Shown: piece by piece, positions 11,923-38,260 of the stretch | Position numbering within the stretch: position 1 is the first letter of the stretch | Layout: each line of letters opens with the position of its first letter | Assembly: GCA_003131315.1 (NCBI GenBank) | Contig: PKUV01000021.1 | Coordinates: 749-40,719 of the forward strand | Direction: 5' to 3' | Length of the DNA stretch: 39,971 nt | Origin: Acidobacteriaceae bacterium | GTDB taxonomy: Bacteria > Acidobacteriota > Terriglobia > Terriglobales > Acidobacteriaceae | The notes under the pieces: generated by a model | Database searches by the model: none | What the model was told of the DNA's origin: nothing | The model's input: the letters and a program-made list of their open reading frames with translations, nothing else | Made by a program: the position numbers and the translations under genes

Positions 11923-14004
11923 CTACCAGACTCGTCCAAAGAAAACTGAATATGACCGCAGCTTTCCGGTCAGGTCTGGACGAATGTTATCGGTGTAGCT
12001 TCCGTAGTTGAAACGAAGACCACCATCGAATCCGGCGCGGAAGTGGTAATCGCCCATGGCTCCGATAAGGGTCTGCGGTACGTTCACCTGGGACACCGGT
12101 CCTGCGCCAATCGCGAGCGCATTGGCGAAATGCGCTGGGAACTGTGGGTCGCCGTTTGGGTCCGTCGTCCATGGGAAGGGCGGGTAGTCTGCCGGGTTGA
12201 CGTCCGGCCGCATGCTGCTGTGGGCCGCAGAGTGCGCGAAGCTTACATTGAGTCCCAGACGCTTCTTCAGTTCATAGGTGGAGTGTATGGAAAAGGTCTG
12301 GCTCAGTTGCTTATAGGGCACCAGCGGCTGCGTATAGACAGCGACCGCGGAATCGTTGCCGAACTGCATGTCGGTCCGCAGATTGTCTTGCAGGTAGGTG
12401 TATCCACCGCCGATGCTCCACTGCGGAACCGGCTTGAGGGTTACGAAGGTGGTATCTACGTAGAGGTGGTTGGTGCGCTGAATCACGGGAAACGACCGCT
12501 GCAGAATCATGCTGGCGTCGTTGCCGATGGTGAGCCAGTGAACCGGAGTAATGGTGACGTCGCCAAACAGGCGGTTATTCGTGCGCGGGTCCGTGACATA
12601 GCCGGGATTGTGTGTGCCGGTCCACTCATAACCGGCTCTCGCACTCCACAATTCCGCACTGTGAAAATGCGCGGCTGCGCCCGCAATGTTGCTGGAACTC
12701 ACGGGCACGACGAAGAGCGGATCGGTATTGTGGGGCGAAGAGAACTGCGGCCACAGCGATGCATCCGACCGCGTGATATTCATGCGCGTGTAGTACGACT
12801 CCAGGTCGAACTGTTTTGTTACCCGGTACGACACCTTCAGACCCGCCCAATGTCGGTGCAGGGACGGGTTGCCAAAGTAGTGAATCACAGTGGGGTCGGC
12901 GAGGGAATACGGCGAGACAAATTCGTTCACCAGATTCTGCTCATGAAAGTCGGCCACCGCTCGTAGCCGGGAAACCGGATTCCAGGTCAGAGTAGCGTCG
13001 GCATTAAATGCGTTTTGGGGATGATTGGTGAAGAGGTTGTTCGTCCGCGCGTAGTTGACGTCGCCGTTCAAGGTGACGTGATGCGCCACCGCCATGGTGA
13101 TCTGCAACGAGTCGGCCTGCGTTTCATGGCGCGGCAACACGCTGTGCACGTAGAGACCAGCCGGCGTGTAAGGGATGTCCTCGCCGGCGAGGGCGGGATC
13201 TGCTGTTCCGTAGAAGTCTTTCGGGTTCGGCATGCGGTCATTAAAGCTGCGAAACTCGTGCTGGTAAATGAGTTTGAGAACCTTTCCTAAGGTGACTTCC
13301 GCACCTCCGGCTATGTTCCGAGTCGTGTAGTTATAGCTGCGGTACTGGGAAGCGGAGTGGCAGTTATCACATCCCGGAAAGCTGTCGCTCGGTTGCCCGT
13401 TTCCGCCCATGTCGAAGTACTGCATCTGGCTGTTCCCGTCGCGGGCCAGCCAACCGCCTTTGACAAACAGCTTCACCGGCACCTTGGGCAACTGCAGCTT
13501 GACGGAAGCGTTGTTCATCCTCCGTCGTATGCCCAGCAAGGAATCCGCAGGGATCGAATCGGTGCGCACGATGTCCGGAGAAATCACAGCTGCTCCGAAA
13601 TAGGTGTTGTCATCCAGGTGACGGACAAAGCTGCGATTGTCGAGGCTGAAGTCAAGCCATTTGCCGAAAGTGAGGCGCGACTTCATGTCGTAGTCGTCCC
13701 GGCTCAGGACGTTCAACGTGGACCTGAAGGTCATGTGCTGGGGGATATTTACATACTCCAATGACAAATCACCGCCCAGCGACTGCTGCAGGCTGTCGTA
13801 TTCGCCCACCCTGCCGCGGTATCCGCTGGTGTCCAGGAACCGGTATTGCGGCATCATCACGGTGAGATGGTAGGTGACTTCGGGGAGATTCTCCGCCGGC
13901 TGCGAAGTGCCCGGGGTGGGCTGCTGAGCCTGAGCTGGGGACGTTACTGCCGCAACTATGAGTGCACCTGCGAGGAGTACAAGGAGTGCTGGAACCTTTT
14001 TCAT
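11923..14004 (-). CDS. MtrB/PioB-type outer-membrane beta-barrel with one haem-binding motif
   Basis: A 693-residue outer-membrane barrel that, with the decaheme cytochrome upstream, would form a trans-membrane electron conduit. It has a clear signal peptide (MKKVPALLVLLAGALIVAAV, cleaved near AQA|QQ). The rest alternates aromatic and polar residues in amphipathic strands (LKLIYQHEFRSFND, KQFDLESYYTRMNITRSD, WSIGGGYTYLQDNLRTDM) and ends SVFFGRVW, an aromatic outer-membrane insertion signal. Unusually, residues 212-216 are Cys-Asp-Asn-Cys-His, a full c-type haem motif (13357-13371) in a region of about 40 residues between predicted strands. Known MtrB proteins have at most a CxxC pair. AAGGAG supports the start. 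It follows the cytochrome gene by 40 bases. The family call rests on architecture and context. Confidence 0.87.
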   Translation of the reverse strand: MKKVPALLVLLAGALIVAAVTSPAQAQQPTPGTSQPAENLPEVTYHLTVMMPQYRFLDTSGYRGRVGEYDSLQQSLGGDLSLEYVNIPQHMTFRSTLNVLSRDDYDMKSRLTFGKWLDFSLDNRSFVRHLDDNTYFGAAVISPDIVRTDSIPADSLLGIRRRMNNASVKLQLPKVPVKLFVKGGWLARDGNSQMQYFDMGGNGQPSDSFPGCDNCHSASQYRSYNYTTRNIAGGAEVTLGKVLKLIYQHEFRSFNDRMPNPKDFYGTADPALAGEDIPYTPAGLYVHSVLPRHETQADSLQITMAVAHHVTLNGDVNYARTNNLFTNHPQNAFNADATLTWNPVSRLRAVADFHEQNLVNEFVSPYSLADPTVIHYFGNPSLHRHWAGLKVSYRVTKQFDLESYYTRMNITRSDASLWPQFSSPHNTDPLFVVPVSSSNIAGAAAHFHSAELWSARAGYEWTGTHNPGYVTDPRTNNRLFGDVTITPVHWLTIGNDASMILQRSFPVIQRTNHLYVDTTFVTLKPVPQWSIGGGYTYLQDNLRTDMQFGNDSAVAVYTQPLVPYKQLSQTFSIHSTYELKKRLGLNVSFAHSAAHSSMRPDVNPADYPPFPWTTDPNGDPQFPAHFANALAIGAGPVSQVNVPQTLIGAMGDYHFRAGFDGGLRFNYGSYTDNIRPDLTGKLRSYSVFFGRVW

Positions 14005-14044
14005 GGCGTGATCTCCTTATCCGAACCAATCCTTTCGCCGGGTC

Positions 14045-14974
14045 CTACTTGTCGATGAACTTGCTTCCGCCAGTTGCGGAAGGTATGTCGCTTCCATGAA
14101 TTGCGTTATGGCAATTGGTACACCGGTCCACCAGGGGCAAACTCGCGCCGTTGTGGTGCGCCGAATGACACTGCAGACAGAGCGCAGGTTGGCTCACGGT
14201 CAGCAGGTTCTGGTTTGGCGAACCATGGGCGGAGTGACACTTGAGGCAGTTCTCGCTTACCGGAGGGTGCTGAAATGTGAATGGGCCCTGATATTCAGCG
14301 TGGCAGCTGAAGCAAAGTTCGTTGGCGTTGGACATCTTCAGATTGTTGCCTGCGCTGCCGCCATGCGCGTCGTGACAATCCACGCAGCTCATCTTGGCTT
14401 CGCGAATCGGGTGGTGGTACGGAAGATCGGCCTCGGCATTTTGCTTCTGGTGGCAGCGCAGGCAGTTCTCATTCAGCTCCCGCCGCGACTCGATCGCTCT
14501 CTGCTCGCCGTGGCCCTCGCCATGAATGGTGTGGCAGTCGCTGCACTTGATGTCCTGCGCCTGGTGCGCGCCCGAAAACCAGTTCCGCACATGATCGGAT
14601 TTCGCGTGGCAGCTTAGGCACACACCGTTCGCTTGTTCGGGGGAACGGTCGCGGAAGCTGATGATCTTGTCTTTCGATTCGGTCGAGTACCCGCCCGCCA
14701 CCACGTGCAGACTGCCCGCCCCATGGCACTGTTCGCACGCAATTTCCTGCATCGAGTGCGCGCTCCGGCGGTAGCCCTTGGAGAGGCCAGCATGACACTG
14801 CGCGCACTGTTCCGCTCCTGCCATCTCCGCACCGGGGATTTCCACGAACTTGCTGAAGTCCTGCGGGATCTTGTGCGATGTGGCTGTCTTGGGTTTGTCC
14901 TTAGCGGGAAGCGTTGGAGTGAACAGAAAAGAAATAGAGAAGAAAAAGACGAGGAGCAAAGCACGTCGCCGCAT
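14045..14974 (-). CDS. Periplasmic decaheme cytochrome c, MtrA/DmsE type
   Basis: A 309-residue secreted cytochrome that carries ten CxxCH motifs, at Cys57, 80, 119, 144, 171, 197, 221, 243, 266 and 285. This number and length match the MtrA/DmsE family, whose members thread haems through a barrel partner from periplasm to cell surface. The signal peptide is MRRRALLLVFFFSISFLF and onward, ending near LPAK. I chose ATG 14974 since GGGAGGT lies just upstream and the signal peptide begins there, although the frame stays open to 15040. Distal His residues (SAH, HHP, GAH, AHG) are regularly spaced, suggesting bis-His ligation. The next gene on the same strand is the barrel. No MtrC-type extracellular cytochrome or CymA-type quinol dehydrogenase is in the window. 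Confidence 0.94.
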   Translation of the reverse strand: MRRRALLLVFFFSISFLFTPTLPAKDKPKTATSHKIPQDFSKFVEIPGAEMAGAEQCAQCHAGLSKGYRRSAHSMQEIACEQCHGAGSLHVVAGGYSTESKDKIISFRDRSPEQANGVCLSCHAKSDHVRNWFSGAHQAQDIKCSDCHTIHGEGHGEQRAIESRRELNENCLRCHQKQNAEADLPYHHPIREAKMSCVDCHDAHGGSAGNNLKMSNANELCFSCHAEYQGPFTFQHPPVSENCLKCHSAHGSPNQNLLTVSQPALCLQCHSAHHNGASLPLVDRCTNCHNAIHGSDIPSATGGSKFIDK

Positions 14975-37970: not shown

Positions 37971-38228
37971 TTATTGCTTGACAGTCGCTTCGGGCTGCTT
38001 GGCGGCTGCTTCGGCTTTTCCCGCGTCGCTCTTGGCGTACTTGCGGCGGAAGCGCTCGATGCGCCCGGCGGTGTCCATGAGCTTCTGCTTGCCGGTAAAG
38101 AAGGGATGGCAGGCGGAGCAGATTTCTACGCCGATGTCGCCCTTGTGGGTGGAGCGGGTGATAAATGCGTTACCGCAGGCGCAATGCACGCGGATCTCGC
38201 CGTAGCTGGGATGGATGGCTGCTTTCAT
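37971..38228 (-). CDS. rpmE: 50S ribosomal protein L31, zinc-binding form
   Basis: L31 sits at the bridge between the large and small ribosomal subunits. The 85-residue protein has the family N-terminus [12 protein letters not shown] and ending [20 protein letters not shown], and keeps four potential zinc ligands: Cys16, Cys18, Cys37 and Cys40 (CACG, CSACHPF). This identifies the zinc-containing type rather than the zinc-free type-B paralogue. The C-terminal 20 residues ([20 protein letters not shown]) are an Ala/Lys-rich extension beyond the E. coli length of 70. It is monocistronic, with its own promoter candidate and a strong terminator. Confidence 0.97.
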
Positions 38229-38260
38229 GTCAGTTCCGAAAACCTCGATTCAGACATTAG

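Follow-up and report, generated by a model that had tools for sequence, protein, structure and literature searches.

A CxxCH motif in the MtrB-like barrel of an acidobacterial decahaem pair: a candidate surface haem site

In the MtrAB complex of Shewanella (PDB 6R2Q; passages of PMC7198977) a decahaem cytochrome is combined with a 26-strand outer-membrane barrel. In the MtrAB model the barrel serves as an insulating sheath for the cytochrome, and the C terminus of MtrA faces outward in the crystal structure. The PioAB and MtoAB conduits of Fe(II) oxidation, as given in passages of PMC10654088, consist of two proteins, a decahaem and a barrel, and have no MtrC. Haem motifs and a barrel can also occur in one chain, as in the Cyc2 and Cyc572 fusions and in GM18_3465 (passages of PMC10654088 and PMC4245776). 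The Cyc2-type proteins have one N-terminal motif and a barrel of about 17 strands, while GM18_3465 of Geobacter sp. M18 has ten motifs spread over barrel loops that are predicted to be solvent-exposed.

In Geobacter, GSU2203 and GSU2204 (families NF041028 and NF041027) are a decahaem beside a barrel with one CxxCH. Passages of PMC4070692 name GSU2203 as OmcK and report a joint increase of GSU2203 and GSU2204 on haematite and magnetite. The passages of PMC13188914 list some GSU2204 members as selenoproteins and do not give the position of selenocysteine. The literature passages on GSU2203 and GSU2204 do not treat the function of the barrel motif. Acidobacterial decahaems have been suggested to indicate iron reduction in arctic peat (passages of PMC3669403).

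Here we describe a decahaem and barrel pair from a stretch of 39,971 nucleotides (the window; bases 749 to 40719 of contig C37) in a 6.0-Mb acidobacterial genome. Among the known systems closest to it is GSU2203/GSU2204, a comparison made through the family models and 30 members from the phylum. Unlike Shewanella MtrAB, the window has a barrel far under the TIGR03509 cut-off, an extra CxxCH and no MtrC gene beside the pair. The PioAB and MtoAB barrels are of the TIGR03509 type, in which none of the 30 barrels examined from this phylum has the motif.

A decahaem and barrel pair of the MtrAB kind

The two genes lie on the minus strand and are separated by 40 bp. Their features, in window positions, are:

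14045..14974, minus strand: P0002, decahaem c-type cytochrome of the MtrA/DmsE kind, 309 aa, ten CxxCH
14153..14158, minus strand: His273-His274 of the decahaem, just after haem motif 9 (CLQCHSAHH); the covariation discussed below concerns His273
14013..14018, minus strand: AAGGAG, resembling a ribosome-binding site, in the 40-bp gap 8 bases 5' of the barrel ATG
11923..14004, minus strand: P0001, MtrB-like outer-membrane barrel, open reading frame of 693 aa, 26 predicted strands
13357..13371, minus strand: CDNCH (barrel residues 212-216), closing the predicted loop between strands 7 and 8

P0002 belongs to the MtrA/DmsE kind, with ten CxxCH motifs and a TIGR03508 score of 210.7 bits (cut-off 192.2). 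Its best E-value, 4e-70, is to NF041028 (GSU2203), at a score of 236.5 bits that lies below the cut-off of 325. Among solved chains the best phmmer match is the MtrA chain 6r2q_A (E 1.5e-40), which carries another label in the source table; entry 6r2q is the Mtr complex.

The barrel is less easily placed by sequence. Its best NCBIfam match is NF041027, GSU2204 'CXXCH-containing (seleno)protein' (E 3e-20), where 72.5 bits fall short of the cut-off of 350. The TIGR03509 (MtrB/PioB) score is 19.4 bits against a cut-off of 240.05, and the Pfam MtrB_PioB score (PF11854) is 23.8 for the whole protein against a gathering score of 23, with no single stretch that passes. On these scores P0001 is related to both the GSU2204 and the MtrB/PioB kinds and is a certified member of neither NCBIfam family. 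A phmmer search with P0001 found no match, and P0001 is thus not recognisable by sequence as a barrel like that of Shewanella MtrAB; a search of solved chains with profile A5 gave a single match (E 2.3), not a relevant one.

The AF2 model of P0001 (mean pLDDT 65.5, pTM 0.57) has 26 strands, a count that leaves aside a strand of eight residues (43-50) and five short fragments of three to four residues. The first Foldseek match of this model is 6r2q_B, the MtrB chain (E 6.3e-16, TM 0.63/0.67), and the next match is at E 9.5e-8. By model and Foldseek match, P0001 has the MtrB-like 26-strand fold with a decahaem next door. The first-pass annotation had proposed an MtrA/MtrB-type pair, and both the TIGR03508 score of the cytochrome and the best solved-structure match of the barrel bear this out. 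A Cyc2 fused cytochrome-porin identity for P0001 was considered and is ruled out by the position of the motif, at residue 212 within a 26-strand barrel.

Among window frames of at least 80 aa, P0002 alone has more than one CxxCH. The earlier statement that no MtrC-type cytochrome is adjacent agrees with this, as the window contains no second multihaem gene. The TIGR03507 (OmcA/MtrC) profile had no matches in the genome; it had none in the control genomes either, so absence is not established. Six neighbours scanned for families are YdjM-like, DUF6580, DUF4260, a VTT-domain protein, a TPR protein and a lipid kinase. On the minus strand at window positions 37974-38249, CSACH occurs once in a frame of 92 aa.

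Elsewhere in the genome P0001 has no second match at E up to 1. Contig C24 holds a second decahaem with an overlapping barrel-like protein of 802 aa (L049:4403-7940, minus strand). This protein has nine cysteines, no C-x(2-4)-C pair and no CxxCH, no Pfam match, and a weak match of 20.6 bits to GSU2204. Judged from its sequence, the C24 pair is a probable second conduit and serves as an in-genome control. Contig C141 (L047, L048) carries multihaem genes with 5, 19, 13, 11, 4 and 16 CxxCH; one product is of the NapC/NirT type and another has a cytochrome b561 domain. These genes, the NapC/NirT-type pentahaem protein of the genome and its encoded Cytochrom_C_asm proteins (the cytochrome c assembly family) have no link to P0001 or P0002.

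The CDNCH motif of the barrel and its relatives

The CDNCH motif contains the only two cysteines of P0001. The first-pass annotation had described a complete CxxCH at residues 212-216 in a loop, and this reading is confirmed. Chance origin is ruled out, because CxxCH arose in only 3 of 20,000 shuffles of the protein and the motif is conserved in relatives. These relatives also rule out a motif peculiar to this genome.

The AF2 model places the motif at the end of loop 199-215, which joins strands 7 and 8; the stretch 195-218 has pLDDT below 50. The C terminus of outer-membrane barrels is periplasmic. Counting back from it on the model puts the motif loop on the extracellular side. The loops on the side of the motif are thirteen in number and 5 to 45 residues long; the turns on the opposite side are twelve and 2 to 5 residues long. 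The motif is therefore predicted to lie on the outer side, which suits the surface position that had been raised for it, and it is probably in an extracellular loop at the cell-surface end of the barrel.

Barrel matches at E up to 1e-5 occur in 12 of 200 genomes of the window's family and in two of the eight genus members among the genomes listed, the genome itself being included in both counts. The pair is thus patchy in its distribution. Among named genome contigs, a scan recovered 25 related loci, all titled acidobacterial or terriglobial, with palsa or peat in eight of the titles. Across 25 aligned barrels of the window lineage, Cys215 and His216 are kept in every one and Cys212 in 24. Spacing and loop length vary around the motif, with Cx2CH in eight barrels, Cx3CH in 16 and CH alone in L068. 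The barrel of L084, left out of alignments A4 and A5 on account of masked bases read as X, has Cx3CH as well. A count of CxxCH alone suggests that most fused relatives have lost the motif; this is ruled out by the Cx3CH aligned at the same place. The CH-only barrel of L068 (269-3226) adjoins a cytochrome broken over two frames, and this locus may be decaying.

Of 396 genomes of the phylum, 78 have a match to the GSU2204 model at E up to 1e-6, and in 32 the match exceeds the cut-off. In the 30 GSU2204-type loci taken as the best matches, all above the family cut-off, each barrel has exactly one Cx2-4CH, and it is a CxxCH. A frame with eight to ten CxxCH stands beside the barrel in 29 of these loci; the remaining one, L109, begins inside the barrel. 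By contrast, Cx2-4CH is absent from all 30 TIGR03509 barrels taken from the phylum as controls (24 of them score over the cut-off), although a cytochrome of nine or ten motifs is present in 28 of these 30 control stretches. The assertion that MtrB proteins lack the motif thus stands for these TIGR03509 barrels, which are the scope of the test; the Shewanella MtrB sequence lies outside it.

The window motif aligns with that of 28 of the 30 GSU2204-type barrels, L106 and L109 being omitted from the joint alignment and the barrel tree, so the motif has a conserved place. In the 53 barrels of the two lineages taken together, no column of C, H or M other than the three motif positions is kept at 80% or more, and all 53 retain the His that follows the second Cys. 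The joint alignment contains no distal ligand shared by the two groups; each has an invariant His of its own. A search for CxxCH in acidobacterial homologues, as had been proposed, therefore finds the motif kept in both close barrels (24 of 25 with full Cx2CH or Cx3CH) and distant ones (30 of 30), so that the first refuting outcome named in that annotation, its absence from close homologues, does not hold. The supposition of a variant particular to this locus is not supported, since the motif marks a larger family that NCBIfam had already named CXXCH-containing. The observation itself is real, and the motif belongs to a named but little-studied family.

The window lineage is set apart from the GSU2204 lineage by long, fully supported branches in the barrel tree. 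Its barrel in the window is about 100 aa longer than most of the GSU2204 type, and the fusion described below and Cx3CH are seen only in the window's lineage.

Fused relatives and the outer end of the cytochrome

In 16 of the 25 related loci the decahaem and the barrel form one stop-to-stop open frame of 1048 to 1200 aa:

L069-L073, L075-L081, L083, L085-L087 (e.g. L070:4714-7857): fused loci, one open frame

Near-identical pairs among them are L076/L087 and L080/L081. Five loci (L063-L067) are split like the window, as is L068 with its broken cytochrome. Overlapping frames are found in L074 and L084 (the latter with masked bases), and L082 starts inside the barrel. The five aligned split cytochromes (window, L063, L065-L067) all terminate at GGSKFIDK. 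In the fusions the stretch that matches this end continues into a linker of 67 to 118 aa. The linkers of all 16 have a Gly/Ala-rich hydrophobic patch (e.g. about residues 327-421 of the L070 protein from 4738), perhaps the decayed signal peptide of a once-separate barrel.

An assembly error is unlikely, because the frame stays open across linkers of many different lengths, and does so in separate assemblies. All 16 fusions fall on one side of one branch of the barrel tree (100/98); the window clade is weaker (82/88). The AF2 model of the natural fusion L070 (mean pLDDT 56.9) has a similar barrel with the motif at a strand start; its cytochrome half has pLDDT below 50, so this fold gives no placement of the cytochrome within the barrel. 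Unlike Cyc2 and GM18_3465, the fusions consist of an MtrA-type decahaem domain, a linker and a 26-strand MtrB-type barrel that bears a further motif. No fusion of a decahaem with MtrB was found in the literature searched, of which parts were available, with preprints and most subscription journals outside the search; the main text of PMC8805035 contains none of the terms 'fusion', 'fused' and 'CXXCH'. The natural MtrA-MtrB fusion, which the first-pass annotation did not mention, is the most surprising part of the finding. In L077 a frame with eight CxxCH lies nearby, at this single locus.

The cytochromes differ together with the barrels. At haem motif 9 the pattern CxxCHxxH occurs in all 51 partners of motif-bearing barrels (23 of the window lineage and 28 of the GSU2203 type) against one of 27 controls. 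The tail pattern HG-x(1-3)-H is absent from those 51 and present in 26 of the 27 control partners. Cytochromes without ten motifs in one frame were omitted, namely L068, L074 and L082 (three of the 25 related loci), L090 and L109 (two of the 30 GSU2204-type loci) and L124, L129 and L130 (three of the 30 control loci). The C24 decahaem has neither pattern; it agrees with the first contrast but departs from the second. Because the C terminus of MtrA faces outward, both differences are expected at the outer end of the conduit. The three cytochrome groups have similar numbers of conserved non-motif His (12, 10 and 11 at the 85% level), so the His after motif 9 may be a relocated ligand of one of the existing haems. 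Each group is one side of one branch, so the covariation may also be a single event. As a comparison of sequences, the covariation supports a changed outer end, short of proving a ligand for an eleventh haem.

A proposed eleventh haem and what it would mean

Conservation, the control barrels and covariation together make an eleventh haem the best reading of the motif. The fused relatives, the Cytochrom_C_asm proteins of the genome and the increase of the Geobacter pair on haematite and magnetite also count in its favour. We give a probability of roughly 55% to an eleven-haem conduit with a surface haem borne by the barrel. P0001 and P0002 would form an MtrAB-type wire across the outer membrane, in which the decahaem, inside the 26-strand barrel, would carry electrons between the periplasm and the cell surface. 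The Cx2CH of the barrel (Cx3CH in most fused relatives) would covalently hold an eleventh c-type haem within an extracellular loop that lies at the barrel's outer mouth, close to haems 9 and 10 of the cytochrome. With this haem the pair would have an electron site of its own at the surface, and docking of an MtrC-type protein would be unnecessary. We infer the outer-side placement, by strand counting on the model, together with haem attachment, transfer distance and surface role. Electrons could flow towards reduction of metals or humics, or from oxidation of Fe(II); the window holds no indication of either direction. More tentative, at somewhat under even odds, is the fuller picture in which the insulating barrel supplies a surface haem perhaps ligated by a His at the outward end of the decahaem, the eleven-haem wire having been fused in one acidobacterial lineage into a complete one-gene outer-membrane conduit.

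Against an eleventh haem stand the missing common distal ligand and L068, which keeps only the second Cys, its cytochrome being broken too. The first of these points also favours an ordinary MtrAB pair, in which the Cx2-3CH of the barrel would form a disulfide or bind a metal so as to fix the extracellular loop or aid assembly, and the occurrence of both Cx2 and Cx3 spacings fits such a site as well. The selenoprotein listing of some GSU2204 members (in passages of PMC13188914) could also point to thiol chemistry. However, a disulfide has no need of the His that follows the second Cys in all 53 barrels, the motif is found only beside decahaems where the neighbour is visible (29 of 30 loci), and the cytochrome covaries with it. 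We regard a disulfide or metal site as unlikely. Still more doubtful is a motif haem that is not the exit itself and only makes contact with a separate multihaem cytochrome, at the surface or in the periplasm, whose gene lies elsewhere in the genome. The genome has possible partners in the C141 genes with 19, 16, 13 and 11 CxxCH, but none of these lies in the window, and the genome has no TIGR03507 match, with the control genomes equally silent. A surface cytochrome or other shared gene was also sought in the flanks of the related loci, which are of unequal length. Among the clusters listed (14, of at most six members each), the only shared frames belong to the conduit or overlap it.

The fusion of decahaem and barrel offers a ready-made one-gene conduit for assembly studies. 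It also poses a puzzle of topology, as an MtrAB-like cytochrome has its C terminus outside, yet the first strand of the barrel should start inside. The literature searched, seen in part, contained no functional study of the GSU2204 group. A haem in the sheath, if true, would give a function to this wide group and would change how two-protein conduits reach their substrates without MtrC.
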